A program made the position numbers and the translations under genes. Positions 16,857 to 63,585 of a DNA stretch of 64,000 nucleotides are shown here, in pieces. This stretch comes from Kappaphycus alvarezii (Eukaryota > Rhodophyta > Florideophyceae > Gigartinales > Solieriaceae): the NCBI GenBank assembly GCA_002205965.3, contig NADL03000496.1, forward strand, positions 186,001 through 250,000, given 5' to 3'. Numbering within the stretch: the first letter of the stretch is position 1; every line of letters begins with the position of its first letter. Under the pieces are notes generated by a model. That model was not told the origin of the DNA and searched no databases. It was given only the letters and a program-made list of their open reading frames with translations.

Positions 16857-16882
16857 AGAAGTTTAATGCGTTCAGTATCTAC

Positions 16883-17436
16883 TGCAAAATAATTGGGATA
16901 GGTAGATCCAAATAATAATAAATAATTCCAACTTGAATAAATAAATAAATGCCACAATCGGACTTAGAATGAATAATGAATAGAAAACCAAATTTAATAA
17001 TATCTGATCGAGGGGAATATTTCGATAGCCCGAGGATGTAAAAATATTTCTAACAACCTAGACTACTTATACTCTACGCCAGGGTGAACCTGCTACAAAA
17101 ATCAGGTGAGCCGTTCAATAATTTTGGTAGACATAATTTAGGCTCAGCAATAATTATTGCAGTATTTTCCAGGTAAGCAATCATCCAGATAATAATTTGT
17201 TGGTAGCATAAATGTAGTAATTATAGCCTGTATAATATAAAAACCCAACTGTAGGACATAATAATTATTTCACACTGTATTCAGCATAAAATAGTGCCAG
17301 TGTAAAATAGATAAAATTATTCCTTGATGATTCATAATAAATATAAATTGTGGGCCTCAATAAAAATATTGCTCCACAATTCAGCATCACTGTAGGACAC
17401 CGGGATAGAGATTAAAATATTTGGTCAATTTTCACA
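16883..17436 (-). repeat. Copia-2 3' LTR
   Basis: 554 bp, AT-rich. Plus strand TGCAAAATAATTGGG to GGTCAATTTTCACA. In element orientation it is the 3' LTR and is immediately preceded by the purine tract AAAGGGGAAGTAG (17437-17449 on the plus strand, reverse-complemented), the probable polypurine primer. Confidence 0.92.
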
Positions 17437-17466
17437 CTACTTCCCCTTTGAATTATTGAATTAAAT

Positions 17467-18318
17467 TTATCCTGTTGACTGAGATGAATCCCGAGATAAA
17501 ATATTACTCATATCCATAGGTATAGATCCATCAAATAAAAGGAGCTTGAGAATGTCAGATACAGGACTGTCCTTTTTTGTGAGCGGGTCGGAAGGATTAA
17601 TTGAACCAGGTATCCATAGCATTTTCTTGATTTTGTTCGTTTCGAAATTATATCGAATTAATTGAACATCCGCTCTAATAGGTTTGTCTTCAGGCACACG
17701 ACAAGTAGATAGAGAGCTAAATAGATCTTTTGAATCAACCTTTGATAAATTCCATTTAAAAATTGTAGCAATTGATAAGAGAATTCTAATTGCCATCGGA
17801 GAACAAGATTCCGAATCAGTTCTCAAATTATTTTTCTCCTTATCCTCATTTCCATGCGGAGCAATTCGAGCCTTGCAATAATATTTTCCATCATCCAAAA
17901 TTTTTATTTTGTATAAAACGTGACTGGATATTACATTCGAGTCGGGAGGAATTTTTGAAACATGAATTTTTGAACACGTAGTGAGAAAATTATTTTCTTC
18001 CGTATTGTACGCATTTGAAATAATATGAGATGGAAGTCCAGATGCTTGATGAAGTAAAAATTCTTTAGATCCAAACCTTTTATGATAAAAACTCAGATCT
18101 TTTTGTTCAGATGATTTCAATTCCGTTCCAGGTAACAACTCAATTTCATGCGCATCAATTCCATCGTTTTCATCAATAGGGATATGAATTAAATTTTCAG
18201 GGTGCAGGGAACTAAGTTCAGATTCAATCGGAACATGTTCGAGAGATAATATGTTTTTAGATTCTGATAAATTTCCATCAATTTCTGATTCATTATATTT
18301 TTCGACATCAGTATTCAT
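17467..18318 (-). pseudogene. Copia-2 partial RT fused to RNase H end
   Basis: An open frame of 283 codons. The middle encodes the start of a copia RT (SSHVLYKIKILDDGKYYCKA, RIAPHGNEDKEKNN, SCSPMAIRILLSIATIFKWN, LSKVDSKDLFSSL). It then jumps to the RNase H end (IRADVQLIRYN, MLWIPGSINPSDPLTKKDS). Everything between motif A and the RNase H C-terminus, including the YVDD box, is absent and the join is in frame. The product cannot reverse-transcribe, so the element must rely on enzymes made elsewhere. Confidence 0.87.
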
Positions 18319-18574
18319 ATTTGGTTAAAATTACCATCATCAGAATGATCGTCAAAATTGTTTTCGCCCACATTCTTCACTTCGGTAATATTTGTTTCAT
18401 CAGAAATATCTTCCACAGAATATTCAATAGACTGATTCAATAAATCATTTGCCTTTTGAATTTGGTATGCTAGTTCATTAGATGAAACGGAATGTCGGAC
18501 ATCTTCAATTGCAGCATGTATAAATTTTCCATTGGATCCAGGTACTGTGACGATAAGAGATTTTTTGTCGAATT

Positions 18575-19410
18575 TCAATACTGGTTTGGGCGATGACCAA
18601 GATCCTCTTTTCTGATTTGGTAGATGAATAAAAATTTCCACAATATCGCCAACATTAATTGGATATCGGTCACAGACTTTGATTTTAGAATAAGATTTAA
18701 TTTCCTCTTGGCTATTAGCTCATTATGAGCTTCTCTTAAATCATTTGGTAGACTTCGAGGACCAGAATTATCGATGGGTCGAGTGTGACCAGTGGCAAGC
18801 TCGTATGAAGAAACAACATCATTTCCATATAAATCATTCGATATTTGAAACATTCGAGCAATACGAACCGTATTACTTGCAGAAGAATCGGATATTTTTA
18901 AACGGATATAAATGTCTCTCAATATTTTATGTTTTGACTCAATATAATTTTTGTTATGGCGGCGGGAACCAATAGGACAAAACGAAATTCCTCTTTCTCA
19001 AGATAGCTTCTAAAATTATCATTGTCAAACGCCTGATCTCCCATTAAATAGTTAGGGTCCCAAAATGGTGTTAACCAGAGAGTCTCAATACAATCAACGC
19101 AATTTTCCATCCTTAAAGAGGGCACTATTGAACCAGTTGAATACCTGGTAACTGAGTCCATAATGTGAAAAATATCCAAGTTTTCCACAAAAAAATGATC
19201 CACACAAACCAATTCATTAAATCCGCGAGATATAGAGCTTAAAGATACTGCACGAGGATGAGATGGTTTTTTTGTGACATCACAAAATTTGCAGGAGTCA
19301 ATTATGCTTGATAAATATTTTTTGCATTCATCGTCCCATATAAAATTTCTTTGTAACAATAGTTTTATATCATCATAATTTGAGTGACCACATACATGTT
19401 TGTGAACCTT
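18575..19410 (-). pseudogene. Copia-2 integrase (frameshifted)
   Basis: An HHCC-like start (KHVCGHSNYDDIKLLL, then DSCKFCDVTKKP) and a catalytic core with Asp in LVCVDHFFVENLDIFH, the fold segment IMDSVTRYSTGSIVPS, the second Asp in LMGDQAFDNDNFRSYL and the Glu in EKEEFRF. The core runs 18919-19359; the C-terminal part (18575-18922) is in a different frame. MDSVTRYSTG with WDPNYLMGDQAFDN is more like the GalEa/REcopia branch than plant-type copia; this is from memory of the family. Confidence 0.8.
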
Positions 19411-19415
19411 ATTAA

Positions 19416-20897
19416 TTATTTTCTTTTTTCAGCCCAAGATATATTTTTTGATGTATTGATATTGTTGGAACAAATTGCTGATAGAAATGAGTTTTCAATA
19501 GGTTCGGATGATTGTATAAATATATTTCCAGGTACATAACAATGATGACCATGATCCACCAATGTTATAGAATCGATTGAATTATTTGCGGACTCGAACT
19601 CGATGCGATTGTCCGTCATATGAATAATATTTGATTTTCTTGTGATATTTCTTCCAATAACCCATTGAGATGATCCACTGATTATTAGATGCCTTATTTT
19701 AACCTGATTTCCATTGTCTGAAATAGCTGATAAAAATATTGAACCGATCATTTTTCTTTTTTCGCTTGAGTGGTCGCCATTTCCGTATTGCCAGAAGGGC
19801 GTGTCCTTGATACATTCAGGAAGTTCATCAAGAATTCCATTCCATTTCGGTAAAATAAATTTCGAAAGTGCTCGTAATTCAACAATACCCATTCCACTAT
19901 ACGGTGCTCCATCATCAAGTAACGGACCTGGGTATAACGTATTTGACGGAGAATCAAGCACCGTTTTTACCATATGAAATGTTACGGAACCAGAATCATT
20001 TTTGTCTTTGATATTTTCTGCATTTCCCATTCTAGATGATGAACCTTTATGATAATTTTTAGCACTCTTGCATTTATCTTTTTCATAGGCCCAATGGCCA
20101 ATTTCTCCACATCGGTCACAAGTTGATTTTGCCTTGAGCGCAGCAAAGTCTTCAGGAGATAATCTTTGCTTATTATTTTTCTTGAAATTTTTCTTTTCCC
20201 GTATGAAATATTTGATTGATTTGAAGAGATATATTTTTGAGCATTTCCATATATTTGATTTGTATTTTTTGGTTTATCACATGCACGAATAATAGATGAT
20301 ATTTCTGAATATTTGATTAATTCTAGGATTTTTCCTTTTTCCAAATCGGCTTCTTCATGCTTCGGAGAAGCAGCAGCCAAAATAGATACTCGCTGGTTTG
20401 AATCAATTTTGGAATTAGCCAGGAGCAAAAATGATACCAGTGCTTCAGGTAATTTCGAAGTACCAGTAGATGAATGAAATCGGGCAATTTGAGCATCAAA
20501 CCGTGATTCAAATTTTTGAAAGACTCACTATCACCACGAGTAGTGTGCAATAGATCTAAGAATTTTTGAAATGTATCTGATATAGATGATAGAGGATCCA
20601 CCTTATGAATAGCGTTAGCAATCGCTAATGCACCATTTTCAGACTGAATTTCTGTGTCTGGAATTTTCTTACAAATATCAAGAGCTCGTCCAAATAATGT
20701 GATTGTAAGACAAGACCTTGTACTGCCTTAGGAACCTTATTAGAATTTGATGCTGGTAATAAATCATGAACAGATTTCCATTTTTGAACAGCATCAAAAT
20801 ATTTTTCTTGAGGTCCTTTACCATCCGTCCAAGGAGCCGTGCGAAGATCCCATGAAAATTTCGGCCTTGAAGGAATTTCGGGGCGATCTGGGCCCAT
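19416..20897 (-). pseudogene. Copia-2 gag and protease (frameshifted)
   Basis: Gag starts at ATG 20897, three bases inside the LTR, as MGPDRPEIPSRPKFSWDLRT. It contains a zinc knuckle CDRCGEIGHWAYEKDKC with seven rather than four residues between His and the last Cys. Protease follows with GPLLDDGAPYSGMGIVELRA, where DDGA replaces the common D(S/T)GA, and then SSQWVIGRNITRK. At least three frameshifts break the frame. Gag packages element RNA; protease would process the polyprotein. Confidence 0.8.
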
Positions 20898-20900
20898 AAC
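20888..20900 (-). promoter_or_regulatory. Copia-2 primer-binding site: initiator tRNA-Met anticodon arm
   Basis: The plus strand reads CTGGGCCCATAAC directly next to the 5' LTR. This equals the anticodon stem-loop of eukaryotic initiator tRNA-Met, so the element RNA carries its exact complement. Drosophila copia and yeast Ty5 prime with an internally cleaved initiator tRNA at this region. The gag ATG (20897-20895) lies inside the site. Confidence 0.8.
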
Positions 20901-21453
20901 TGCAAAATAATTGGGATAGGTAGATCCAAATAATAATAAATAGTTCCAACTTGAATAAATAAATAAATGCCACAATCGGACTTAGAATGAATAATGAATA
21001 GAAAACCAAATTTAATAATATCTGATCGAGGGGAATATTTCGATAGCCCGAGGATGTAAAAATATTTCTAACAACCTAGACTACTTATACTCTACGCCAG
21101 GGTGAACCTGCTACAAAAATCAGGTGAGCCGTTCAATAATTTTGGTAGACATAATTTAGGCTCAGCAATAATTATTGCAGTATTTTCCAGGTAAGCAATC
21201 ATCCAGATAATAATTTGTTGGTAGCATAAATGTAGTAATTATAGCCTGTATAATATAAAAACCCAACTGTAGGACATAAAATTATTTCACACTGAATTCA
21301 GCATAAAATAGTGCCAGTGTAAAATAGATAAAATTATTCCTTGATGATTCATAATAAATATAAATTGTGGGCCTCAATAAAAATATTGCTCCACAATTCA
21401 GCATCACTGTAGGACACCGGGATAGAGATTAAAATATTTGGTCAATTTTCACA
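20901..21453 (-). repeat. Copia-2 5' LTR
   Basis: 553 bp with the same ends as the 3' LTR. The differences I see are A/G in the AATAATTCC stretch, a short indel in GACATAATAATT, and T/A before ATTCAGC. High similarity indicates a recent insertion. Confidence 0.92.
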
Positions 21454-25669: not shown

Positions 25670-25739
25670 ACGCCGGTGGTATAGTGGTAGCATACGCCCC
25701 TGCACGGGCGAGACCCGGGTTCAATTCCCGGCCGGCGTA
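25670..25739 (+). tRNA. tRNA-Gly copy with a one-base deletion in the anticodon loop
   Basis: 70 nt. The acceptor stem ACGCCGG pairs fully with CCGGCGT, followed by discriminator A. The D-arm has AGTGGTA and the T-arm CCGGG-TTCAATT-CCCGG is perfect. The anticodon stem CGCCC/GGGCG closes a loop of only six bases (CTGCAC), where the right-arm copy has seven (CTGCCAC, anticodon GCC). If real, the deletion removes an anticodon base and would disable decoding; a consensus error is the alternative. No intron, no encoded CCA. Confidence 0.9.
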
Positions 25740-26100
25740 GCTGGCAGTGAACACTGTGTTAGGCGCAGATTTTTTTTGTCGCCGTCATCTACAGACCTTC
25801 AGTTTACTGTACTACCTATCCTTGTCCAAATTTGCTCTATAGTTCCGGTCCTCCCTCGTCCTCCCTGAACCTCGCTTATCATTACCGCGGTCCTCTCCAA
25901 ATTTACTTCCATTTTATCTAGATATTTTTACACTGTATCCACCCCTCTGAATCGATCCCGAATTAAGTTCTTTTTCCCTTTTTGCTTACCTCCTCCTCCA
26001 AAATCTTTTTTTTGAGACAAAGGGCGCAAATGCACTACTACAAAAATCCCTTGCAGATTTATTTTACCTATTTCTAATCTATAGAACCTGCCCCGGAGCC

Positions 26101-26108
26101 TATTTAAA
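26101..26108 (+). promoter_or_regulatory. TATA-like box upstream of the LTR ORF
   Basis: TATTTAAA, 87 bp before the LTR ORF start codon. It is repeated in the 3' LTR (33567-33574), and the solo LTR has GTTTAAAC at the matching place (about 4071). This suggests a promoter dedicated to the LTR ORF. Confidence 0.5.
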
Positions 26109-26194
26109 CACCTTTATTCCAAGTCTTAAACGCTCCGATCATTTTGCTCAGCACTCTGTCCCCCTACACACCCCCGCTCACCCTTTACAGAAAC

Positions 26195-26801
26195 ATGACG
26201 TCAAATCGCCCCTCTGTCCCTATCTCCAAAAACCGCCCTTCCCGTCCATCAATGGCCTTCGTCTCGCCGCCTACGGGCCAACCGATGCCGACGACTACAT
26301 CCGGCGTCAAACAAAGAAGAAAATCATCGGAGTTCGTTCGCCGCCTCTTCATAGAAGAAGGCGAGGGAGGTAAGTGAGGATGAGACTGAGAAAGTCGAGG
26401 AGGAGAGCGGGGAGTCCTTCGAGGAATGGTTAGCCCCTGAGCTAGTGTACGAGACTCAGGGGAAAGAGGATGAGGAAGAGGAGGATGAGGAAGAGGAGGA
26501 TGAGGAAGAGGAGGATGAGGATGAGGATGAGGATGAAGAGGAGGAAGAAGGATGACGAGGACGAGGACGAGTTGGAGGGAAATGGGGGCATGGAAAGTGT
26601 TTACTGGTGGGGCCTGGACTGGAGAGTATGGATCAAGTGGTGCCGACGCTGGAACCGGATGGAGATATCTTTAGTAGTTTAGATATCTCCCAGGAGGGAA
26701 TAGAGAGCTGTGAGCCATTCGCAGATATTTGTGGGGACTGCTTGGACAGCATGGATATTTTAGAGGAGTTGTTTGGATCTGATTTAGAGAATGGGAAATA
26801 A
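26195..26801 (+). pseudogene. LTR-encoded acidic protein, 5' LTR copy
   Basis: Starts at ATG in GAAACATGACGTC and ends GSDLENGK-stop. Basic N-terminus (SNRPSVPISKNRPSRP); a middle dominated by Glu/Asp with GAGGATGAGGAA repeats; C-terminus with LDISQEGIESCEPFADICGD, then MDILEELFGSDLENGK. Single-base differences from the 3' LTR copy put the two copies out of frame at different positions (for example near 26318), so the intact frame of about 200 codons is inferred by comparison. The acidic repeat may expand and contract. Function unknown; an acidic transcription activator or a decoy are only guesses. Confidence 0.7.
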
Positions 26802-26928
26802 GAGGACCTCATTGATTGTTAGTTTCTTAAGTATCTTTTGTTTAGAGTATATCATCCACACAAATTGTTTGTATGCATTTCCTGGTACCTTCTGTAGTTT
26901 TGTTCGGACTTTAGGGTAGCCAAAAGTC

Positions 26929-26936
26929 TATATAAG
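26929..26936 (+). promoter_or_regulatory. main LTR promoter TATA box
   Basis: TATATAAG within AAAGTCTATATAAGCTGAG. It is conserved in the 3' LTR (34391-34398), the solo LTR (minus, near 3325) and LTR2 (37072-37080), always about 310 bp before the LTR end. Likely start region of the genomic transcript. Confidence 0.72.
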
Positions 26937-27330
26937 CTGAGTAAACCGCTTCCTCATGGAGAGGTCAAGCAAGTTGGCAGACACTTCAAGCTCAGTCCCA
27001 AATAGTAGGAAGTTGAGAGTCAACTTCAGACCCAAGAAGCATTTATTTTACCCTAGTCACTAAGCATAGGTGGTAGACCCTGCCCCTTCCATACTTGCTT
27101 GTAGCCCATTCAACTGTCTTCCCTATACACTCCTTTTCGTTCGTTCAACTATACCACGGTAGCACTTTTGTCGCTTGCAACACCTCCTTCTTGGGGTGGT
27201 TGATTCTGAATATCTCTTCTCCCGACGATTTACCCCTATCATTTGGTACTCTTGTGGAGGGGGTTGCACCCGAGGTATTCGAGTTGAGCAGTCTTAGGGA
27301 ACCATTCGAGGGGATTTCTTTTCTGTAATC

Positions 27331-28254
27331 ATGGATCTCAACGCTGCTCGTATAACGTTCACAGGGGGCAAGAATGAAGACGTTGAGGAGTTTCTCTATA
27401 CATATGTCAACGTTGTGATGCGTGAGAAGAGCGATGAAGAGAAGGCCGAAAGTATCTTCGCCTATCTTCATGGTGACGCAAAGCACAAATATAAGGCCAA
27501 GTTTATCAACGGGTGGTCTCTTAACGGGAATGGGCGTAACTTCGGTGAGGTATGTGAGTGGCTTGTGAAAGAATATGCTAAGGAGGTAGAACCAGATGAG
27601 ATGATTCGTACCGCCATAGAGGCCCGGCTCAACTTCGACGATTTGTTAAGCTCATTGGTATACTTGTGTGATCTCTATGAAAAGGCTGGGTTCAACGCCC
27701 AAGCCAAGTACGGAATGCTGCGTAAGGCGGCGATGGGGGATAAGCGGCTCTCCGATTTCCTCCTCATCAAGGGCCCTCACACTTTTAATGAACTGAAGGG
27801 TACCATAGTAGAATTTGTCAAAAATTCGGAGACGTTTCAGTCACTAAGTGAAATACCGAGGGAAACCCGTACATCTATGCCGATCGTACATCCTGAAAGG
27901 AATTATCAAAAGCCGGCTACTAGCGCAGCAGCATTGGAATCAGTCAGGAGCGATGTCAAAAACTTGGAAGAAAGGTTGGAAACCCGATTCGATAATCGAC
28001 TTGACATGATAACCTCGCAGTTGGAAAGCCTTACTCTTACCATTAAGAAGAACCAGTCTGGGGCCCCCAAGGCCGCAGAAGTCTGTTCCTACTGTCACAA
28101 GCCTGGACACTTTGCAAATAGGTGTCCTGATAATCCACATAGAAACACTCGTTGTGGAAAGTGCGGTCGATACGGGCATCATGAAAGTAACTGCTGGTCT
28201 AAAGACAACAGAAAGCAAATTTATCGGACGAGGAGGAGTCAGGACCAGAGATGA
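27331..28254 (+). CDS. gag: Gypsy-1 Gag, intact 307 codons
   Basis: ATG at 27331, 90 bp after the LTR; stop at 28252-28254. The N-terminal two thirds (FTGGKNEDVEEFLYTYVNVV, DAKHKYKAKFINGW, RTAIEARLNFDD) are a retrotransposon Gag capsid-like helical region. Two zinc knuckles follow: CSYCHKPGHFANRC from about residue 252 and CGKCGRYGHHESNC from about residue 275, both exactly C-x2-C-x4-H-x4-C. The end is basic. It should assemble the particle and bind element RNA. It is one of the few intact frames in the window, which supports a young element. Pol follows in a different frame. Confidence 0.92.
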   Translation: MDLNAARITFTGGKNEDVEEFLYTYVNVVMREKSDEEKAESIFAYLHGDAKHKYKAKFINGWSLNGNGRNFGEVCEWLVKEYAKEVEPDEMIRTAIEARLNFDDLLSSLVYLCDLYEKAGFNAQAKYGMLRKAAMGDKRLSDFLLIKGPHTFNELKGTIVEFVKNSETFQSLSEIPRETRTSMPIVHPERNYQKPATSAAALESVRSDVKNLEERLETRFDNRLDMITSQLESLTLTIKKNQSGAPKAAEVCSYCHKPGHFANRCPDNPHRNTRCGKCGRYGHHESNCWSKDNRKQIYRTRRSQDQR

Positions 28255-28527
28255 AAATCTTACAAAACAGAAGGATCAAGTTGACGGATGCCGGTAACGT
28301 ATCCATCGCTGAAGAAATCAGTCAAGTCAATGTGACAAAAAGGGATGGGGAAGGGAACATTTTATCGAAAAACCTAGGCTAGATTATGGAATGCTGGAAC
28401 ATATCCCAGCACCTGTACCTCCTCGAACCAAGAGGTCTGATCAAGTTGTTCCAGGAGTGGGAACTCCGGCCAAGAAGACGAAAAAGAGTAAGAAATTTAA
28501 GATATCCCAAAGGACGTACTAGAATAT

Positions 28528-31500
28528 GTGAAGAAGTACAATTTGGTGGCTGAGCTTGCATCAGCCCCAACTGGGATAACGTTTGGTCAACTTTTGAGGG
28601 GCGACGCAGAGGACGCGAGAAAGAACTCAAAAAAATTATCAGGTCTAATAAGTCCGCTAAGGGTAAGAAACTGTTTCTTCAATCGGCCTCGACAGCACCA
28701 AGACGTCTTAAACTAGTACCAGTCAAAGTATTGGGAATGCAAACCCAAGCTCTTTTCGATTCGGGCGCTGTTCCAAACCTTATTTCAGAAACTTTGGTGA
28801 CAGATCTAGGTCTTGAAATTATTCCAACTACTCGAAGAATAACTGTGGCGGATGGAACCGTATCAAAATGCATGGGCACTGTTGACAAGGTTTCCGTGTT
28901 CTTTGGGGACTCTAAAGTTGATTAGACTTTCGTCATGCCTGATCTCCCTTTCGATGCAATCATTGGCTCCTACCATGGAAAGACTAGGGACCTGCATTGA
29001 CTTGGGCAACCAAATCGTTTCAGTTAATGTTGACGGCAGAACGTGAAGATGCCCCTGGATTTCGACAAAAGCACACATCCGGTAGATTTAAGAAACGGAC
29101 AGTGAAGATTTCACTTCTAGCTATGACAGCGAAGATTCGAACCAACTAACACTTTCGGAAGTGGAGAAGGGTACGCTCGGGGAATGAACATGGCATGGGA
29201 TGATTATGATTCTGGGTTTGAAACAGATGAAGACTGGAATTCTAGGGTAGGTTGACACCTGAATGTGTTTCTTTTTGCGATAATATCGAATCAAAGGACG
29301 GAATTCGGAGCATGAAAGAAGATTACAATTGCAAGGAAAACAGGAATATATCGGATTCCATATCTGAAGATGTGAGCACGCCGGAAGAGGTCCTTCAAAA
29401 TTTGGAGGTGAGGATCAAGAAAAGGACCAGCGCCAAATGGCAGAAATTCAAGAAAAAGTACAGCACCTTCCAGCCCCGCCTCAATGAAATATCCGACATG
29501 TTAACATCTTCCGAAGTAATTGCATGGAGCGTTTCGATTAAGACAAGCAAGTGTACCGGTCACTCACTCATTTGAACTTACCGATACTCAACCAATTTAC
29601 CACAGGCCTAGACGTCAACCGCCAAAATATGACCAATTTATCTCAGAGAATGTTACAAGTATGCTGGAAAATGATATTATTCGGCCAGTTTCATCCCCAT
29701 GGTCATTTCCAGTTGTGGTAGCACCAAAGAAGGATGGAAAACTTCGCTTTTGCGTCGATTACCGACAACTGAACCAGAGAATGATACCCGATCGATTTCC
29801 GATTCCAAATATGGAGGAAATCCTCGAGGACTTGAAGGACGGGAGATACTTCACCTCAATTGATCTTTACACTGGTTATTGGCAGATTCCATTGGATGAA
29901 AAATGTAAGGAAAAACAACTTTTACCAGCAAAGCCGGTACATTCAGGTTCGAAGTGATGCCTTTTGGTCTCATGAATGCCCCAGCTACATTCCAAAGAAT
30001 GATGAACGAGGTTTTGAAAGGACTTCCATTTGCAAGAGTTTATATCGATGATGTGTAATATTCTCAAAAACCTTGGATCAGCACATATCGCATGTCAAGA
30101 CTGTGGTGGAGAGAATAGCTGCGTACAGCCTGAAAATTAAGTTAAGCAAATGCTTCTTTGCGAAAACGTCTATCCAATTACTCGGTCATATCGTCGATCA
30201 AGAGGGAATTAAAGTGGATCCAGAGAAAACGAAAAAAATCAAGTTGGCACCAAGGCCCGCTTCAAAGACGGAGGTTCGAAGCTTCTTAGGACTGGCCTCA
30301 TATTACAGAGATTTATCAAAGATTTCGCCAAAACTGCAGCACCGTTACATGCCAGCACAACAAAGAACGGAAAATTTTATGGAACAAGGAAATGCAAACT
30401 GCATTTGAGAGCTTAAAGATAAGCTATGTGTCCCCCCAGTGCTCATGTATCCAGATTTCAAGAGACCATTTGTTGTGGAGACAGATGCCTCAGAACGGTC
30501 TTTGGGTGCCTTTTGTCCCAAAAAGATGAAAACGGAAGACTACACCCTGTTCAATTCGCAAGTCGCACTCTGAATGATGCGGAAAGAGATACTCAGTCTG
30601 CGAAAAGAAGCGCTAGCTGTCGTCTTCGCACTGAAAAAGTTTCGTGTTACCTTTTATCACTCGAGAAATTTGTCTTGATAACTGATCACCAGGCACTTAA
30701 GACAGCATTCCAAAAGAAAGATGTACATCACCGCTTGGCCCGATGGCTCGACATTTTCGCAGAATATCGGTTTGAAATTGTGTATAGGCCCGGACGCAAT
30801 AATCAGCCTGCCGATTACCTATCCCGCTTGAGGGATCCACTGATTCCAAATGAAAAAGCTTCCGAGACATCGTCGGAGTTGCCGAGTCAAGTGCCGACGA
30901 TAACGAGTACGAAGCTAATATTCACGGACTATTAAATTCCTGATGGACTAGAAATGAGAAAGGTTGATATTGAACACAGAAATTGGGTACGCAGGAATCA
31001 AAAGGCTTTTACATTGTGGAATGGGAAACTCTTCCGACACACGAAAGCCGGTCCTCGACTAGTGGCCCCTTTGAAAGAAAGAATGAAGATCTTGAGGACT
31101 TTTCATGATGAGTTAGGGCATTGGGATCTCGAAACAACCAAAATTCGTTACTGAGAGATTCTGGTGGCCCAGTATCCATAAGGACGTCTATAATTTCGTG
31201 AAAAGCTGCGACAACTGTCAAAAATTCACGCCAATACGAAAGTATAAGACAACTCTAGCTTCCAGTTTCCGTCTCTTTGAAACCTTCTCAATTGACTTTG
31301 CCGGCCCATTCAAGGAAACCTCTTCCGGAAACAAATACCTCCTTATAGGGGTGGAACATCTTACTGGATGGCCAATAGCAGTTGCAGTTGAGGAGGCCAA
31401 TGCTGAGGTGGTCCTGAGATTCATCGAAAAAGAAATAATTGAACCGTTTGGTCTTCCAAAAAGGATCATCTCAGATAACGCCTTTGTTTTACTGCAACTT

Positions 31501-32144
31501 CACTGCTTCGTTTCTTGGAAGAAAAGGGATTCAGCTGAAGACAGTTCTCGCATACGCTCCTATGTCAAACGGTAAAGCGGAGAGGATGGTTGGAACCATC
31601 AAACGAGCAATATCGAAAACTATGTCGAGAATGAAATCCAGTGGGAAGATGCCTTACCAAAAGTGTTATACGGCTATCGTCGAAGAAGAGGAAGAAGTGG
31701 ACGGTCACCATTCGAGCTAATGTACGGAAGGCTCCTAGAATGTTACAGAGAGACATGGAAACAAATATTATCGATGAAGAGAGTAGAGAGTCGAACTACT
31801 GGCCACGAAGCTGGAGATCACACCGCGCGCTAACACAGACAAGAAATAAGATGAAGAGCCTCCAGTCCAAACCTTTCTCAGTCGGCTCTAAGTACTTTGT
31901 AGCACACGGAAAAGCAATGCAACAGGCTGTGAAGTGGCCGGCTTTCCAAACAAAGTACTCGAACCCTTGCATCGTCACGGAGGAAAGACACCCGCATTAT
32001 AAGCTCTGTTCAAGCTCAGGGAAGAGATCAAGGAGGGCAATCCATGCACGTCGTCTGGTCCCTTACCATCAGAGGCCTGAAGAATTCCTTCTCACACAGG
32101 ACTATGCGCAACCACGGGGATACTCATCTTTAACTATAGAATGA
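28528..32144 (+). pseudogene. pol: Gypsy-1 Pol: protease, RT, RNase H, integrase (frameshifted)
   Basis: Domains in order across several frames. Protease: ALFDSGAVPNLISETLV (about 28750) and [86 protein letters not shown] and the catalytic ARVYIDDV (about 30030-30060), which is followed at once by a stop that a small indel would explain. RNase H: VETDASERSLGA and ITDHQALKTAF. Integrase: SCDNCQKF, SIDFAGPFKETSSGNKYLLI, IISDNAF and GKAERMVGTIKR, with the DDE residues recognisable. The motifs are well kept, which fits recent breakage or sequencing indels. Confidence 0.9.
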
Positions 32145-32763
32145 TTCCTATGGGAGGAAAAAGGGCCTGGGAATGGATCATTTCGATTACTCGGGACTAC
32201 TTTGAACTCCACGTAATCATCCATTTCTACATTAATATATGCCTATGTTTTCGTACGTTGAACGGACCATTGCTACCTCAAGAAGATTTCCGACTATTGA
32301 TCAGAGTTCTATTCTCATTCCAAAACGGAAGGTTCACGGAAGCAGGTCCAGAGTTTGTGGAAGTCATATATCATTACTCTATAGGAAGGTATGGAATGGT
32401 AGCTATCGGAGACTTGTCGCAAACATATCTGAACATTATCCGTCCGTTTACGTATTTCTTAAGAACAACCAAGATGTGCGACTGAGAGGTTACAGCTTGC
32501 CCCTTGATATGGAATATCCACTGGTCCCGTATCCTCTATGGGAACCTTACATTGCTCCGCTCAGAAACACAACCTCAGCTGAAGACCAAGATCCTCCCGA
32601 GACCGTGATGATGATACGGCTGGACCATCAAGTGATCGGGGGATCATCGAAGAGGGCAAGGCGTCGGGAGCAGCGAGGAAGATCGCCAAGAAGATCGCCC
32701 AAACACCGCCTAGTCTCCCAGGGGAAACTATGCATCCTTAATTATTGGACGGCTACCAATTAG
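32141..32763 (+). pseudogene. Gypsy-1 accessory ORF 3a (one frameshift)
   Basis: Begins at ATG 32141, overlapping the end of the integrase frame by four bases. Its first part (32141-32485) has INICLCFRTLNGPLLPQEDF and LLIRVLFSFQNG, then DLSQTYLNIIRPFTYFL. After a frameshift near 32460 it continues DMEYPLVPYPLWEPYIAPL and ends in a very basic stretch SSKRARRREQRGRSPRRSPK that looks like a nuclear or RNA-binding signal. It resembles ORF 3b (32780-33195) along most of its length. There is no signal peptide or clear membrane helix, so a classic Env is unlikely. I do not recognise the family. Confidence 0.68.
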
Positions 32764-32779
32764 ACGTTGGCTTCGCGAA

Positions 32780-33195
32780 ATGACAGAGGACCCTCGAGAA
32801 GCAGAAGTAATTTCCTTTTTTGCCATTAGTATTTGCATGTGCTTCCAGACCATTCACGGGGCGCACCTTACTCGTGAGGACTCAGTCCTTATGTTGCGAG
32901 TTTTTTTCTCCTTCAGATACCCGTTTCTGGACCCGTTGCCAGAAAAGTTTGCATACTACGTTTATACCTCACATTTGGAAGGTTTGGAGAAGTGAAACGG
33001 GAGGAGCTCATTAGAGAACACTATGAAACCATACGCCGAATCTACGAAACTCTTGACCAAGGAGATGAGCCGGTTATCGCACGGTACACACTCTCTCATC
33101 ATATTGGAAATGAGCTACTACCATATCCTTACAGTGAACCCTATACTCTCCCTGATGAATGGATAGAACTCCCACAAGAACAACAAGAGCATTGA
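32780..33195 (+). pseudogene. Gypsy-1 accessory ORF 3b, paralogue of 3a (one frameshift)
   Basis: ATG 32780; first part AISICMCFQTIHGAHLTRED and LMLRVFFSFRYP. After a frameshift near 32995 come REHYETIRRIYETLDQGDEP and NELLPYPYSEPYTLPDEWIE, ending at 33195, 24 bp before the polypurine tract. Shared positions with 3a include the ICxCFxTxxG block, ED, RVxFSF, IRxxY and the LxPYPxxEPY block. About 140 codons in all, without the basic tail of 3a. This is a tandem duplication of an element-specific gene of unknown function. Confidence 0.68.
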
Positions 33196-33218
33196 GAACG
33201 AGACGGGACGTTCGACCT

Positions 33219-33229
33219 AAGTCGGGGGG
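33219..33229 (+). promoter_or_regulatory. Gypsy-1 polypurine tract
   Basis: AAGTCGGGGGG immediately before TGTTAGG of the 3' LTR. Position and G-run fit the plus-strand primer of gypsy elements. Confidence 0.75.
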
Positions 33230-34705
33230 TGTTAGGCGCAGATTTTTTTTGTCGCCGTCATCTACAGACCTTAGTTTACTGTACTACCTATCCTTGTCCA
33301 AATTTGCTTATAGTTCCGGTCCTCCTCGTCCTCCCTGAACCTCGCTTATCATTACCGCGGTCCTCTCCAAATTTACTTCCATTTTATCTAGATATTTTTA
33401 CTGTATCTACCCCTCTGAATCGATCCCGAATCAAGTTCTTTTTCCCTTTTTGCTTACCTCCTCCTCCAAATTCTTTTTTTTGAGAAAAGGGCGCAAATGC
33501 ACTACTACAAAATCCCTTGCAGATTTATTTTACCTATTCTAATCTATAGAACCTGCCCCGGGAGCCTATTTAAACACCTTTATTCCAAGTCTTAAACGCC
33601 CCGATCATTTTGCTCAGCACTCCTGTCCCCCACACACACCCGCTCACCCCTTTTACAGAAACATGACGTCAAATCGCCCCTCTGTCCCTATCTCCAAAAA
33701 CCGCCCTTCCCGTCCCATCAATGGCCTTCGTCTCGCCGCCTACGGGCCAACCGATGCCGACGACTACATCCGGCGTCAAACAAAGAAGAAATCATCGAGT
33801 TCGTTCGCCGCCTCTTCATAGAAGAAGAGGCGAGGGAGGTAAGTGAGGATGAGACTGAGAAAGTCGAGGAGGAGAGCGGGGAGTCCTTCGAGGAATGGTT
33901 AGCCCCTGAGCTAGTGTACGAGACTCAGGGGAAAGAGGATGAGGTTAAAGAGGAGGATGAGGAAGAGGAGGATGAGGATGAGGATGAGGATGAAGAGGAG
34001 GAAGAAAAGGATGACGAGGACGAGGACGAGTTGGAGGAGGGAAATGGGGGCATGGAAAGTGTTTACTGGTGGGGCCTGGACTGGAGAGTATGGATCAAGT
34101 GGTGCCGACGCTGGAACCGGATGGAGATATCTTTAGTAGTTTAGATATCTCCCAGGAGGGAATAGAGAGCTGTGAGCCATTCGCAGATATTTGTGGGGAC
34201 TGCTTGGACAGCATGGATATTTTAGAGGAGTTGTTTGGATCTGATTTAGAGAATGGGAAATAAGAGGACCTCATTGATTGTTAGTTTCTTAAGTATCTTT
34301 TGTTTAGAGTATATCATCCACACAAATTGTTTGTATGCATTTCCTGGTACCTTCTGTAGTTTTGTTCGGACTTTAGGGTAGCCAAAAGTCTATATAAGCT
34401 GAGTAAACCGCTTCCTCATGGAGAGGTCAAGCAAGTTGGCAGACAGCTTCAAGCTCAGTCCCAAATAGTTAGGAAGTTGAGAGTCAACTTCAGACCCAAG
34501 AAGCATTTATTTTACCCTAGTCACTAAGCATAGGTGGTAGACCCTGCCCCTTCCATACTTGCTTGTAGCCCATTCAACTGTCTTCCCTATACACTCCTTT
34601 TCGTTCGTTCAACTATACCACGGTAGCACTTTTGTCGCTTGCAACACCTCCTTCTTGGGGTGGTTGATTCTGAATATCTCTTCTCCCGACGATTTACCCC
34701 TATCA
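33230..34705 (+). repeat. Gypsy-1 3' LTR
   Basis: 1476 bp with the same ends as the 5' LTR. Differences seen by eye are mostly one- to three-base indels and a shorter GAGGATGAGGAA tract. It contains the same ORF, TATTTAAA (33567-33574) and TATATAAG (34391-34398). Confidence 0.93.
33663..34263 (+). pseudogene. LTR-encoded acidic protein, 3' LTR copy
   Basis: Same ORF as at 26195. Here one base is missing in the AAGAAGAAATCATCGAG stretch, so the N-terminal frame stops early. From there on another frame reads EESGESFEEWLAPELVYETQ followed by an almost pure Glu/Asp run. The end (FADICGDCLDSMDILEELFG, SDLENGK) is in a third frame. Comparison with the 5' copy and the solo LTR shows the intended continuity. 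Confidence 0.7.
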
Positions 34706-35225
34706 CACTGCTTTCCAATTTTTTAACTTGGCCCATCCCATGAATTCTTTTGGATTTGGTCACTGTCCCCTTAACCCGTTTTACTTCTACTGATGCCATA
34801 AAGTTACTCTCTTCACCATCAGAAATCCCACTGAGTATCACAAGTGAGTGCGTCCAGATAGTCAAAGCTTTCGTATCGATGTGGGTCTTAAGACTCAAAT
34901 ATGTTGGACGTTAAATCCATTGTTTAGCACCGCGGAGGTTCTTCGACAACAGGAAAGGCTGTTTCCAACTGTCACCAAGCGGTAAACGTTCCTCTACCGC
35001 TTTGTGAATTGTGTTTGTTTGTTGCAAGACATTGAACCTCTTCAAGCGCAGCGGATTAATGGGGGTGGCTTACTGTAAATGCTGCAAAGGTTATGCGTGC
35101 CATGAATTAACTGCGGTGAGGAATTCTTTTTGTTTCCTAGATGCGAGGTAGTGAGAGCAGCAAGTTAAAACCTATTAAAAAATACGAATGAGATAGGAGC
35201 GCGACTTACAGTCGCTGTTTGAGAT
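34706..35225. other. gene-free shared stretch, left arm
   Basis: Mirrors 51960-52461. It includes a piece resembling module M (CTACTGATGCCATAAAGTTA, near 34783-34802) and a minus-strand open stretch THIDTKALTIWTHSLVILSG that I cannot identify. No gene called. Confidence 0.5.
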
Positions 35226-35910: not shown

Positions 35911-37386
35911 TGATGTTATTAAAACGGCCCTTTCTGTAGGAGAGCGGTCCTCTCCACAAGCCTCTGTCTTCTTCTTCACCGTGAGTTTTCAAAAACAACT
36001 CTTCCCACGAATTTTCTTTTACAAACAAAATCATGAAACAAAATTTCCGCTATGCATCAAAGTTCTCTGTAAAACTCCATTTCTATTTCATCTCCGAGGG
36101 TTTTGGTCCTTTTTCAAAAAAAACTTTCGAGTCGTGATCCGCTTCGTCCTCCAAATCTAGTTCCGATCTTTTATCAAGCAGATTTTTAGGTATTGCTCTG
36201 ATTGCATGGAAAATGAAAGCTGCGACATCACCTCACATTTTTATTTCGTACAAGGCCGTGAAACTTTTCGAAGGCGTCGCCCTGTTTGAAGTTCCAAATC
36301 GACGTCGTTGAGGCAAAACATCCGCCAACAACTACCCCATTGGATCACCCCTCTTTGCCCTCAACATGACCATCCTCCGCCCCTCCATCACCATTGCCAA
36401 GTCATCCGGGGCCGCCGCCCCCTCAACGCTCTAGCTTTGATGGCCAATGGAGCAGCCGACTATGATAGTTATTCTATAGGAATGGACCAGGAACGCGTTC
36501 TGGAGTGGGTCCGCCGGCACTACTTCGAGGAGGCAGAAGAGCCAGAGAAAAAGGTGGAGGAAGAGGAGGACTAGGAGGACTGGGTGGATCCGTGGGAGCC
36601 ACTCTTGTACAACGGTGGGGGAGCTGCTGTGAATAACGAAGGGGAGAATGATGGAGTAATCTCAATTTTTGACTTTTCTGACAAGGATGAAGCGGAGGAT
36701 GAAGAGCTGGACGAGGAGGATGAGAGGGAGGGAAACATGGAATGGTGTAGAATGGTGAGAAGGGGACTGGACATTATGGACCACTTGTTCTCCACTCTGG
36801 AACCAGAAGGGGAATCTTTAGTGATTTAGATATCTCCAGTAGAAAATAGAGATTTTTAATCCGTTGACGGATATTTTTGGGGTCATATCGGTTGAAATGG
36901 ATATTTAGAGGAATTTTTGGCTCTGGTCTCGAGGAATAGGATTTTAAGGAAGAAATATAGATTTTTATCCTGATATTATCTGCTCTTAGTCTTTACCGTT
37001 CACACGAATCCATTTGATACATTTTCGGTACTGAGTATGTTTGTTTGAGACTTTAGGAATAGCCAAAAAGTTTATATAAGCTGAGTAAACTGCTTTCTCT
37101 TGCGCAGGTCAAGCAACTTGGCAGACAACTTTAAGCCAAGGCCCGAATAGTAGGAAGTTGAGAATCAATTTCAGACCCAAGGACCATTTTTCTTGCGCTG
37201 GTCGCAGAGCATCAGTGCTAGACCCTACCCCTTTTACACTTGCGTGTATCCCTCTCAACTGCAGTCCTTGCCCACCCCTTTTTGTTCCCTCGACTATACC
37301 ATGGTAGCACTTTTGTCACTTGCACTATCTCCTTTCTGGGGTAACTGGTTCTGAATATCTCTTCTCCCGACGATCTACTCCTATCA
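35911..37386 (+). mobile_element. LTR2: diverged gypsy-type solo LTR, left arm
   Basis: 1476 bp, TGATGTTATTAAAACG to CTACTCCTATCA, with flanks CAATT (35906-35910) and AAATT (37387-37391) as a 5-bp TSD with one mismatch. It shares U5 (TCTTCTCCCGACGATCTAC), the TTATATAAG box (37072-37080) and the embedded ORF with Gypsy-1, but U3 is strongly diverged. It is present in both arms (49785-51259), so it is older than the duplication. Confidence 0.85.
36366..36939 (+). pseudogene. LTR-encoded acidic protein, LTR2 lineage (left arm)
   Basis: ATG in CAACATGACCATC. N-terminal NGAADYDSYSIGMDQERVLE then WVRRHYFEEAEEP corresponds to GPTDADDYIRRQ...EFVRRLFIEE of Gypsy-1. An acidic middle (FSDKDEAEDEELDEEDERE) follows, then MDHLFSTLEPEGES, matching MDQVVPTLEPDGD. 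The remaining C-terminus (around GSGLEE) lies in other frames. The shared order across such diverged LTRs shows the ORF is an old, inherited LTR component. One in-frame stop and at least one frameshift are present. Confidence 0.68.
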
Positions 37387-39790: not shown

Positions 39791-40402
39791 CTCAAAAAAA
39801 GTGGAAACTGGCACAGATATCTGTTGGTGCAAAGTACAGCAAATATGCATCATCAGAATATAACGATCCCAGGTTCCCATCTGGTGCGCCCCGATATATT
39901 TCAAAAGCGTTTACTAGTTGTGCCCTCACCAATTATGCCGTTCATCTGTGTTTATCAAGAATATAGCAACAAATAAAATCTATGATTGTATATACAAATT
40001 CCTAATTCATTCAAATTGTCTTTGCTGCCTTATTCGCATTAAATAATATTTTAAAAGCCCAGGCAGGGTGCTTTTAAGTTCATATTTGTCAATAAGCTCG
40101 CCCCTTGTTTCAACAATGTCCGAATGAAACATACACTGGCTAATCTAAACGAAGCTGGGGTGGGGAAACAACTGAAATGCAAAGTCCTCCTTGAAGATTT
40201 GCTTAGGTGGAGCAAAATAGTTCCTTTCCTCATCTAGATGCTTGTTGTGTGGTATCCAGAGGCGTTTCCTGTCTCCATAGAGCTTGTGAGAAAAATGGAC
40301 AGGGGCATATTCGGAGGGCACTCCAAGTTAAGGGGATTTTAATGCGGCAACTCCTGGCGTTGGTAGCAACCTACAACTCTGGGAGCTAATAAAGTTAGTG
40401 TT

Positions 40403-41450
40403 AGGAATAAACCGAAAGGGACGATATTCTGAGAACCAATTAATCTACAACGGAGCTGTTTCAAGAAACAAAAGGCCTGCCGAAGAAGATTTGTGGCGCG
40501 AATAATTTAATGAGGAAGAATGTTTAGGGATCTAAAACTGAGTACAAAGAGGACGGGATCTAAAACCTGTGCGCAGTGGCTAAGGTAAAAGAATTGATGT
40601 TTAGGTTAGAAGTTGACTTTCGACTTCTTAATTTTCTGGGTCCCACATTTGAATTTGAAATGAGATATTTCCATCTTTCTCGCCCCAGCGTAGAAAATGG
40701 TATAATCATCTTATTTATAATATCTAGCTAACCCTTAAATCGAAAGCAAATATGCTATGTGTACCATAAAATGCATGATGTGGACGACAGAAACTAACTG
40801 TAGATACTTTCAAGATAAATATCTTTAATTACTCTTCAAAATCTCCATATTCGAGGCTAGAGCCAAAATATTCCTCCACAATATCTAAACCTCCAATACA
40901 GTCCCTATTATTACTGCTGAAGGCCCCAAAATGATGACTAGTCTCCTCAGATATATCGAAGTCCTTCAATCTCTCCTCGAGTCCCTTAGCGTCCCCATTT
41001 CCGATAGAGAAGTCCGAGATTAACATCACACCCTCGATCCCCCTCTGTCCTCATCAGCAATTTACCCTCTTTTTACTCAGATAAATCTCACGGGCCCGTT
41101 CGATCCTCTAGTCTTCATATTCCTGCTCAAACGCCTCAGCATCTTCTGTGTAATCTTGTCTTCTTCATAAATTGAAGGTTAACCCGCTCCGTAACGGGTT
41201 TGCAGTCCATCTTCTTGATTTAATCGTCTTTGTTAGCTGGCCCAAGGGAATAAATTCCAGGAAATTGATGAGTAATGGGGCTCTTGCAGATCTAGAGGTG
41301 GTGGGAAATGGACATGGGTGGATCATACCGGTATAAAAGTAACGGGGTTCTCCGGTTAGCTGGTCGAGTGGATGACAATAAGACTGATACTCACAGAAGT
41401 TACTACAGAACTTCAAATGGGGTAATTTCGTCTAGAATTTTCACCTGTTT
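40403..41450 (-). mobile_element. decayed gypsy-type LTR (minus) in the spacer
   Basis: Starts TGTTAGGAATAAACCG and shares GATATTCTGAGAACCAA with the U5 of Gypsy-1. It holds a degenerate LTR ORF: KDFDISEETSHHFGAF, then CIGGLDIVEEYFGSSLEYGD (40829-41029), matching DISQE...LDSMDILEELFGSDLEN. The other end is not defined. This is the third LTR lineage with traces of the embedded ORF. Confidence 0.65.
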
Positions 41451-47098: not shown

Positions 47099-49168
47099 CT
47101 ATTTGAGATCCATATGATGTTTCTCGCGAACGTGGTCCATGAAGCAACACCTTTTTGTGCTCGCGTGACAGATATACACATCACTAAGGCCGTCGTCACG
47201 GCAAGTAGAACAAAGAAATTTTGACTTACTGACCTTACAAACTCGACAGCGACCTTGGTAAGATGCGTTAGTATACTCACCATTACTCAATTTCCTCTTC
47301 TTGTTAGTTACAGCAAGATGAGTTCCAATCCCTGAAACAGGGTCCACATATCGTTATCATCCTCATTTTGTAAGCAATTAGATGCCCTACGTGACATCGA
47401 ATCAAACTTGTTCTCAATGAGTTCTTCGGCAAGCATCTCATAAAACTTGGATTGTGATAAGCAGAGTCTTGGACCGAAAGAATGCTTATATAGTAAAAAT
47501 GAATCAACAATTATGATCGACAGGAGAGAGGAATTGACCCTGAGCGACCAATCTTTGACTTCCAATTTCTTCTCAATTCCAAGGGTATCTTGCCTACATC
47601 TGTTGTGGCGATCGACTTGAGAACACGTGTCGTAGTACCTCTCCACAACATCTGGAACTGCAATCTCGAATTCCACTTTCCTTGTCTCACCACAGTTCTC
47701 CATCTTTCCCTACAAATTGGGGTTCCCTGATTGGTTGTATGGCAACTGCTGACGAAATATCTTCGTTCTCTATCCATCCACAACACAGCCATTAAAGATT
47801 TGTTGGTGTCAGGATTCTTCGAAACCATCGAGATATGATCTCCGCGCTCCGTGAGCTCCTGTGACGACAAGTGTTGCATCGGAAATTCCTTAACCGCATT
47901 CTTGACCACACAATAAATCTCGTTCCATATCTCATCAAGGCTTCCGCAGTTGACACTGATGCAAAAAATGAATCCCCACATACGACGCGACCTGTCTTCA
48001 GCCAAGGTTGAACAAGACGAAGTGTAAGTGCGGTTGTGTGACAGAATTGCTCTGTGAAGTCACGCCGAAGGCCACCCGTTTTCCCCATCCGAGCTCCCAA
48101 TTTCAACATTATTCCAGACTGTCCACATGCAGAAGCCTTCAATTCGCAGTCATTCTCGGGCTTTCTGTCATAGGCAACGTAATGTGGGAGTCCTTTTTTG
48201 ATCCAATCTCCCCCGAGACCGTACCATCTGCTAATACTTTCATCGACGCAGATGTGAGAAGATGGCGTGACATATTGCCTGCGGTGGTCGTTGATGGCCT
48301 TCAAAGATTCCACTTACCAGAGACCATCTCGAGTCATCCAAGGGTCTTTCCTCCCGTTCAGAAGTGTGACTGAAGCAAATGTTTGCCAGAATCAGCTCAA
48401 ACCTTCTACGTGACATGATCTTTCCAAAGCTCGGTGCTGGAATGTACTTTGATCCAGATTCACTCCAGAGGTCGCGGCGGTTTGAAAATGAAAATCATGT
48501 CATAAGTATGAGAATCCCAAAAAACTTCAATATCTCTCCTGACGAGACGGGATGATTTCCAATGGAATTCAATCGATCATTTGTAAGGTCACGCATGACA
48601 ATTAGGTGACGGAGCGGAAACATGCTCATGAAGCATTCAAATGGCGATAAATCTCCAGGAGCACAACCATACGCGAGAGTATTTTCAGAGTAGCCAATTA
48701 TTTTGCAGCTTTTCTCGGATACATTTTCATTAATAGGTGTGAAAACCTTCTGATTGGTCCATGATCGTCCATGAGAAAAAACAGGTGCATCTGTTTGATG
48801 CACCGTGGAATCATCGCAATTCCCATCTGATGCCGACGAAGACGGTTGAGGAGCGCCCAAACTTTTATGCATGGCTTCGTTTGGCAATTGAGCGGTTCCT
48901 TCCTCCATTAGGACGTCTGTTGGAGGTAATCCCGCTTTGATGTTGACAATCTTCAACGTGACAGTTTTGAGACGGTCACGTATCTTCCAGCTTGCCTCCA
49001 CTGACTTCCTCCTTCGACGCTTACAATGTCGATGTGGACGTCAATAAAGGTTCCAGCGAGCAATTTCGTCTTCCAAGCTGACCCATACAAGCGCTTACAT
49101 TCCGCAGCTGACGTAACAAGGGAAGCACGGCAATGAATGGGATTTCCTGGAACGTTTCGTGGATTCAT
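47099..49168 (-). pseudogene. piggyBac-like transposase (DDE_Tnp_1_7 type), frameshifted
   Basis: ATG 49168 (MNPRNVPGNPIHCRASL), then frames at 49001-48495, 48313-47792, 48005-47511, 47703-47308 and 47347-47099. First catalytic Asp: HICVDESISRWYGLGGDW with GLPHYVAYDRKPEND and GQSGIMLKLG. Second Asp: VVCGDSFFASVSTAEALMRY. Later acidic positions: YYDTCSQVDRHNRCRQDTL and VKDWSLRVN. The C-terminal Cys/His cluster CRVCKVSKSKFLCSTCRDDG, CHASTKRCCFMDHVREKHH is like the piggyBac CRD that binds the element ends. At least five frame breaks. Confidence 0.85.
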
Positions 49169-49373: not shown

Positions 49374-49784
49374 GTCCAATAGACACTAGAGTACTGGGTA
49401 TAAAAAGTTTTTTTGAAATATTGGGGAAATTTAGCTACCCTCCACTGAGCCTTTGTTTCCAACTTTCTGAAAGACACTGCCATCGTCTCCACCACTCGTT
49501 TAGCAGCGTCCCGGCTGCTTCTTTCTCTGTTTCAGTTTCATGGGCACTGTGGGAACCCTTTGTAGTCGTCTATCAGCTTGGCTCTCCGGTGAAAGGTTTG
49601 GGTGTTTTACTCCTGGGAGATATATTCGATATATCCTAAAGTTTTTCATAAACCCCCAATCTTCTCAAATGGCATTCCGACACAGTAATCGATGAGGATC
49701 TAAAAGCTAGTCAGTAGCCTAGTCCGCAAGAAAGCGGGGGCAGAAGTTTCCGTGTTATAAAAACCGACTAATCCGTTCAAATTT

Positions 49785-51259: not shown

Positions 51260-51446
51260 AATTGCACGCGTTTAGATTCTCCTCGCTAGAAGTGTCAGAC
51301 GATGAAGTAAGCTACCCCAAACCCCCAATTATACACCAATCCATAGTTTCTTCTTGTAATATTTTCGAGGCTCGAGTCGATTCAGTCAGAATTAACAATT
51401 TTCAAGACATCAAGGTGAACTTCTTCCTGAGCATTCCATAGCCCCC

Positions 51447-52478: not shown

Positions 52479-52549
52479 TACGCCGGCCGGGAATTGAACC
52501 CGGGTCTCGCCCGTGGCAGGGGCGTATGCTACCACTATACCACCGGCGT
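52479..52549 (-). tRNA. tRNA-Gly(GCC), complete
   Basis: 71 nt. Acceptor ACGCCGG/CCGGCGT with discriminator A; D-loop AGTGGTA; anticodon stem CGCCC/GGGCG with the seven-base loop CTGCCAC giving anticodon GCC; four-base variable loop; T-arm CCGGG-TTCAATT-CCCGG. No intron, no encoded CCA. The D-stem is weak (GTAT/GCAT). Mirror of 25670-25739, which lacks one C in the anticodon loop. This copy looks functional. Confidence 0.95.
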
Positions 52550-52610
52550 CCTCTGCTATAACTTGGGATGTATCAACAATATATAAATTGAGAAACCTGC
52601 TTCGTCGAAG

Positions 52611-57640: not shown

Positions 57641-57650
57641 TTGATATTAA

Positions 57651-63566: not shown

Positions 63567-63585
63567 CCATGGTTGCTGATGTCTA

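Follow-up and report, generated by a model that had tools for sequence, protein, structure and literature searches.

A probable selected gene inside the long terminal repeats of a Gypsy-type retrotransposon in a likely red-algal genome

The long terminal repeats (LTRs) of a Ty3/Gypsy-type retrotransposon were analysed in a window of 64,000 nucleotides (the whole stretch of contig NADL03000496.1, assembly GCA_002205965.3, from 186,001 to 250,000 of the forward strand; window positions are used throughout). An earlier note had proposed that these LTRs bear their own gene for a short acidic protein, inherited by the lineage and preceded by a separate promoter. By sequence comparison, it is very probable that the LTR does carry an existing coding gene under selection, because the ratio of non-synonymous to synonymous substitution (dN/dS) is low in frame 0, insertions and deletions (indels) within the open reading frame (ORF) favour multiples of three, and open copies are found elsewhere in the genome. 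What the product does is more tentative; a regulator of LTR transcription is the reading that we favour.

The LTR reading frame and selection upon it

The LTR ORF is located entirely within U3, after the start of the LTR and ahead of the main TATATAAG box, and the distance from its stop to this box is 127 nt in both Gypsy LTRs. Each copy has a basic start, an Asp/Glu tract and the end FADICGDCLDSMDILEELFGSDLENGK; EPFADICGDCLDSMDILEELFGSDLENGK is a stretch of the predicted protein, and the C-terminal peptide was located at 26619-26798 and 34081-34260. The ORF and related copies in the window are as follows.

25757-34705: Gypsy element
25757-27241, plus strand: 5′ LTR of the Gypsy element, starting TGTTAGG and ending CTATCA
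26101-26108, plus strand: TATTTAAA box of the 5′ LTR, candidate separate promoter, starting 94 nt upstream of the ORF ATG
26195-26801, plus strand: LTR ORF of the 5′ LTR from ATG (26195) to stop, in three frames in this copy
26929-26936, plus strand: main TATATAAG box of the 5′ LTR, downstream of the ORF
33230-34705, plus strand: 3′ LTR of the same Gypsy element
33567-33574, plus strand: TATTTAAA box of the 3′ LTR, starting 96 nt upstream of the ATG
33663-34263, plus strand: LTR ORF of the 3′ LTR from ATG (33663) to stop, in three frames in this copy
34391-34398, plus strand: main TATATAAG box of the 3′ LTR
3016-4437, minus strand: solo LTR of the same superfamily, flanked by the 5-mers GCCTC and GGCTC (4/5 alike)
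3452-3966, minus strand: LTR ORF of the solo LTR (ATG at 3966), with a frame shift in the acidic middle and aligned codons without a stop
35911-37386, plus strand: LTR2, which belongs to the diverged subfamily B, flanked by the 5-mers CAATT and AAATT (4/5 alike)
36366-36814, plus strand: degenerate subfamily-B LTR ORF in LTR2, with frame shifts and stops
49785-51264, minus strand: mirror copy of LTR2 on the other palindrome arm, with an ORF remnant at 50267-50806
40850-40957, minus strand: trace of the ORF C-terminus in an old LTR (tblastn E 1.5e-5), with an R-U5 remnant at 40394-40640

The anatomy of an ORF of about 200 codons in both Gypsy LTRs was thus as the earlier note had described, while the single open frame it implied was not found: frameshifts or stops interrupt all copies in the window, with ORF pieces in three successive frames in the left LTR (26108-26377, 26355-26555 and 26556-26801) and in three frames in the right one (33543-33821, 33596-34144 and 34015-34263). 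The relatives it had placed in the solo LTR, in LTR2 and its mirror, and as a trace near 40403-41450 were all recovered. The ORF of the solo LTR ends after 131 codons owing to its frame shift, and the near-matching flanking 5-mers suggest that LTR2 is a solo LTR. An LTR-like copy at L004 2051-2744 has the ORF start and the R-U5 end, with most of the ORF between them missing.

Many of these frame shifts are likely to be long-read assembly indels, because the compared LTRs and palindrome arms differ mostly by gaps (97.1% identity with 6 mismatches and 37 gap bases between the two Gypsy LTRs; 11 mismatches versus 108 gap openings in the longest piece of the arms) and because a tRNA-Gly anticodon is short, being read as two bases (gc) in the left arm and as gcc in the mirror copy (52479-52549). 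In agreement with this account, the window accounts for one of the 40 scored genomic matches to the 187-bp ORF start of the left LTR, and each of the remaining 39 spans 189 bp at 98% identity.

For the codon comparison, 22 copies were extracted from the window and from fetched loci, leaving out places with R-U5 only and a partial copy (L009 4745-5312). Twenty of them were aligned (L015b and L028a omitted), and rates were determined for 17 copies (136 pairs) after the mirror or duplicate copies g5, ltr2 and L015a had been dropped; ten are of subfamily A, five of subfamily B, and L014a and L031 are in neither group. Over all 17 copies, dN/dS was 0.37 in frame 0, versus 0.99 and 1.22 in the shifted frames. 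Among subfamily-A copies (45 pairs) it was 0.33 (95% interval 0.26-0.42, bootstrap over codon sites), with 1.00 and 1.34 in frames +1 and +2; between subfamilies A and B (50 pairs) it was 0.30 (0.20-0.40), with 1.01 and 1.18; and among subfamily-B copies it was 0.43, with 0.96 and 1.25. The 16 single pairs listed ranged from 0.14 to 0.55. The earlier note had named, beforehand, a dN/dS near 1 without frame conservation as the result that would speak against an inherited gene; what was found is about 0.3 within A and between A and B versus 1.0-1.3 in shifted frames, together with many open copies, which supports this part of the proposal.

The pattern is confined neither to one end of the ORF nor to its repeats. 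In the non-repetitive N-terminal 75 codons dN/dS was 0.32 within A and 0.26 within B (A-B synonymous sites are saturated), and in the C-terminal part 0.37 within A; in the 5′ and 3′ flanks every frame gave a value of 0.61-0.92, and third positions showed no excess. Within the ORF, 98 of the 135 A-A indels of at least 2 nt had a length divisible by three, compared with 8 of the 54 found in the 3′ flank and 7 of the 112 in the 5′ flank. The A-B figures were 303 of 429, 12 of 60 and 184 of 498, respectively; these counts are not independent, as the compared pairs share history. Stops within the aligned codons of the 20 copies number 32 in 3539 for frame 0, versus 168 in 3492 and 282 in 3540 for the other frames.

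Both diverged subfamilies retain the frame and the basic N-terminal segment, and they share the N-terminal pattern RPLNxLxLxxxGPTDxDDYxRR and the C-terminal motif. The conserved end, ...ADICGDCLxxMDILEELFGSDLE, is the most conserved part of the protein, rather than the acidic tract, and its retention across subfamilies bears out the claim that the ORF ends are alike although the surrounding U3 has strongly diverged. The CGDC within it was set aside as a metal or redox motif, since the first Cys is lost in several copies.

It is extremely improbable that the ORF simply arises from a GA-rich repeat and has no coding role. Its middle is such a repeat, where long stop-free stretches come easily, and all window copies are broken, but selection is equally strong in the non-repetitive N-terminal codons and in the C-terminal part, and when an intact 646-bp copy was dinucleotide-shuffled 1000 times, the longest ATG ORF on the plus strand had 147 codons (median 48), versus 213 observed; with the indel lengths added, this explanation is already contradicted. 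A chance ORF is ruled out by the same dN/dS values, indel lengths and shuffles.

Two observations nevertheless count against the reading favoured above. Indels of 1 nt among subfamily-A copies are not depleted in the ORF (194, versus 189 and 171 in the flanks), which fits post-insertion decay or assembly error, many copies being decayed or mis-assembled. In addition, one antisense frame, which shares the third codon position, also has a low dN/dS (0.42 and 0.51). An antisense gene was rejected: its low ratio derives from the shared third position, but this frame has more stops (71 in 3540 codons, versus the 32 of the sense frame), and the two intact copies yield an open antisense stretch of at most 77 codons.

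Open copies in the genome and the upstream box

The host assembly (336 Mb in 884 contigs) was searched with the N-terminal peptide of subfamily A and likewise for subfamily B, which yielded 4959 (A) and 5605 (B) first-look candidates; these are loose, and the 150 scored in each case are the best ones, not a random sample. For subfamily A, 82 of the 150 scored matches have an open frame of at least 195 aa and 43 of at least 230 aa, the latter being the safer figure for open copies because L036 (197 aa) is still late-shifted. Among the near-identical copies L036-L039, L037 and L039 are open over all 213 codons read, and the remaining two are shifted, one after the acidic tract and the other inside it. 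For subfamily B, 28 of the 150 scored matches run for at least 195 aa without a stop, and a stop lies inside the match in 11. The Gypsy family numbers hundreds of copies or more in the host genome.

The TATTTAAA box, proposed as a promoter separate from the main one, was found where expected in both Gypsy LTRs, 94-96 nt before the ATG. Across the 20 aligned copies, TATTTAA is present at most 160 nt upstream of the ATG in 13, from both subfamilies (12 of 17 when g5, ltr2 and L015a are removed). Its position ranges from -94 to -118 in A-type copies, and three of the five B copies (L018, L027a and L032b) have it at -84/-85. As judged from sequence, this conservation favours the box, and its role as a promoter is a candidate one. 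Against it, TATTTAA is absent in 7 of the 20, including the solo LTR and LTR2 of the window, where TGTTTAAA and TGTTTGAA, respectively, are found instead of TATTTAAA. Genome-wide, 514 places match the flanks of the A box (control 0), with TATTTAAA kept in 82 of the 100 listed, a retention compatible with copy youth as well as with function.

These data bear on an alternative that we regard as unlikely, in which the gene is real but full-length elements alone express it, from their 3′ LTR via genomic or spliced RNA, as with Nef, so that TATTTAAA would be no promoter and solo LTRs would be silent. The U3 of the 3′ LTR belongs to the genomic RNA of LTR elements, seven aligned copies do without TATTTAA, and youth alone could explain the 82 of 100; the box nevertheless keeps a similar distance in both subfamilies despite a surrounding U3 that is barely alignable between them, which speaks against this alternative.

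The predicted protein and its possible role

The intact copy encodes 213 residues as read (24 kDa, pI 4.05). Residues 1-53 contain 12 Lys/Arg versus 4 Asp/Glu (pI 11.3), and residues 54-213 make up three segments, each of pI 4.1, with 45 Asp/Glu among the 55 residues 91-145. Given this anatomy of protein and LTR, and a parallel with foamy virus Tas, the reading to which we give the most weight, with a probability of roughly 0.4, is by analogy that of an acidic nuclear protein that regulates LTR transcription and is expressed from a U3 promoter of its own. On this activator reading, a U3 gene of about 215 codons, with dN/dS values typical of purifying selection, would be transcribed from its own TATTTAAA promoter; the basic segment (residues 1-53) would mediate entry into the nucleus and/or contact with nucleic acid; the acidic activation region would consist of the Asp/Glu tract together with the conserved C-terminal end; and the protein would feed back in trans on the LTR promoters of the family, much as Tas does. 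A solo LTR could remain a working source of the protein, since box, ORF and presumed polyadenylation region share one LTR. It is doubtful that this extends to every LTR, solo ones included, each being a self-contained two-promoter cassette (TATTTAAA-ORF-TATATAAG-polyadenylation region) and supplying the whole family with a trans-acting acidic activator or anti-silencer; if it does, the solo LTRs would be more than dead scars and would form a dispersed family of selfish genes, possibly of thousands, that keeps their parent elements on.

A database search of the protein had been called for in the earlier note, and when run on ORF pieces it found no relative among 5.8 billion proteins or in Pfam, PDB or IMG/VR. 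With the broken 131-aa ORF of the solo LTR, the 5.8 billion proteins gave four candidates, none at E 1 or better, and with the C-terminal 60 residues zero candidates; this search and that of IMG/VR, which held no match to the protein, need shared short words, so that remote relatives can be missed. Pfam scans of the N- and C-terminal pieces returned below-cut-off matches only (Rpc31 at 0.0057 the best, Nop14 at 0.02, BUD22, Nop52, Presenilin and others), mostly to the acidic stretch and of little meaning, and the N-terminal profile had no match among PDB sequences.

The activator reading is weakened on several counts. No DNA-binding domain or homologue was recognised in these searches, and acidic composition alone fits many nuclear proteins. 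Both structure models are of low confidence and are too weak to support a fold: the N-terminal one (pLDDT, the predicted local distance difference test, 61) has a long helix, at 74-80 over residues 31-50, and the C-terminal one (53) is disordered apart from a short helix at MDILEELF.

It is very unlikely that the LTR passively spreads a host gene that was captured or domesticated. The lack of relatives in IMG/VR would suit it, but searches of limited reach found no host-type relative among the 5.8 billion proteins or in Pfam, and the ORF lies inside the LTR in both subfamilies and therefore belongs to the element's own line of descent.

More credible, though still improbable, is that the gene is real and its product acts on chromatin or against silencing, as a histone-binding or decoy-like acidic protein comparable to the anti-silencing proteins encoded by transposons, rather than as a transcription activator. 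A basic start followed by a long acidic tract resembles histone-binding acidic nuclear proteins, and the 45 Asp/Glu of residues 91-145 agree with this. Subfamily-B ORF pieces (L018 131-700 and L027 2156-2360) contain VIVISDSSDE or VIVISSSSDEDE, of the form VIVISxSSDE, which resembles a SUMO-interaction motif and counts on the same side; no such motif was seen in the subfamily-A pieces compared. It is, however, the C-terminal motif and not the acidic tract that is most conserved, and no histone-chaperone domain was found, the sub-cut-off Pfam matches meaning little.

For the activator reading, the closest functional model is foamy virus Bel1/Tas, according to the cited excerpt a nuclear protein that binds both the LTR and an internal promoter and bears an acidic activation domain at its C-terminus (PMC517496). 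As far as that excerpt goes, the likeness would consist of an LTR promoter plus a candidate separate internal promoter and of a putatively nuclear product with an acidic C-terminal region; of Tas-like domains, a basic N-terminus and an acidic C-terminus are seen, with no recognised domain and with low-confidence models. DNA binding and activation have been demonstrated for Tas, whereas the LTR ORF product is known here from sequence alone. Pfam scans listed no foamy-virus family and PDB and IMG/VR gave no match, no direct alignment with Tas being made; the product may work like Tas but is not classed as Tas. The bel genes of foamy viruses lie only partly in the LTR.

LTRs are ordinarily non-coding, and in the cited excerpt the sag gene of mouse mammary tumour virus (MMTV) lies largely in U3 and has several promoters, one inside the LTR U3 itself (PMC4667437). 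The present coding region is likewise inside U3, 127 nt before TATATAAG. MMTV differs in being a vertebrate betaretrovirus in which sag has an immune function and, according to that excerpt, part of the sag transcripts are initiated elsewhere than in U3 (env, U3/R), whereas the present ORF encodes an acidic protein and belongs to a Gypsy-type retrotransposon of a likely red-algal host. The parallel is positional only and homology to sag is not claimed; no superantigen family appeared when the ORF pieces were scanned with Pfam, no direct comparison with Sag being made. Coding capacity in the 5′ part of LTRs is also described, in the excerpt cited, for the nef gene of primate lentiviruses such as HIV and for putative HML LTR ORFs (PMC2664473); these are again from vertebrate retroviruses, and the HML ORFs are putative. 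ORF0 of Retrosat2, RIRE3 and RIRE8 in rice and other grasses is an extra orphan ORF of long-LTR retrotransposons, less conserved than the main ORF (PMC3485330, in excerpt); it differs in lying upstream of the gag-pol ORF and is not described there as inside the LTR.

Among the papers listed by searches of the open-licence PMC literature, none described a gene carried within an LTR of a non-vertebrate element, Gypsy included. The exceptions to non-coding LTRs found there are vertebrate retroviruses, and a U3-borne gene in a non-vertebrate Gypsy LTR would be a new variant. If red-algal Gypsy LTRs do carry a selected gene, LTR-borne accessory genes arose independently in retrotransposons. Moreover, since the entire ORF and box region persist in solo LTRs, recombination between LTRs that removes an element could leave a protein-coding locus in its place, and this would offer a route by which an element might regulate itself from its own remnants.

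The Gypsy element and its surroundings

Assignment of the element to Ty3/Gypsy is based on its paired LTRs with TG...CA ends, its 5-bp target duplication and the Gag CCHC zinc knuckles CSYCHKPGHFANRC and CGKCGRYGHHESNC, read directly in the ORF at 27331-28254. The target duplication is located as follows.

25752-25756: target site duplication CACTG, left copy
34706-34710: target site duplication CACTG, right copy

The empty site, with a single CACTG, is found in the mirror arm near 52467. No Gag or CCHC model of Pfam matched the Gag ORF, which gave a single sub-cut-off zinc-finger match, and a search with Gag matched two unnamed proteins only. Pfam identified RNase H at 30426-30935; in a neighbouring element (L010), reverse transcriptase is followed by RNase H and by a piece read as integrase, the latter without a Pfam match. 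Between pol and the 3′ LTR lies a 174-aa ORF (32239-32763) with no Pfam match, and the L010 element holds a similar one. A tRNA-Gly gene is positioned 17 nt upstream of the Gypsy element (25670-25756).

The window is eukaryotic by content, and a phycobilisome domain at three places in the host genome fits a red alga as the likely host. The window is a large imperfect palindrome (arms 8676-37786 and 49386-63674), which could reflect either a true palindrome or the head-to-head joining of two haplotypes; the Gypsy element and a Copia-like element (about 16881-21453) are present in the left arm only. A fragment of a piggyBac-type transposase (DDE_Tnp_1_7) is located at 47792-48313 on the minus strand. 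Elsewhere in the assembly, contigs C679, C70, C266 and C651 have LTR matches about 7.5 kb apart, the spacing expected of full-length elements, and three LTR matches in a row on C679 suggest a tandem or LTR-sharing array.

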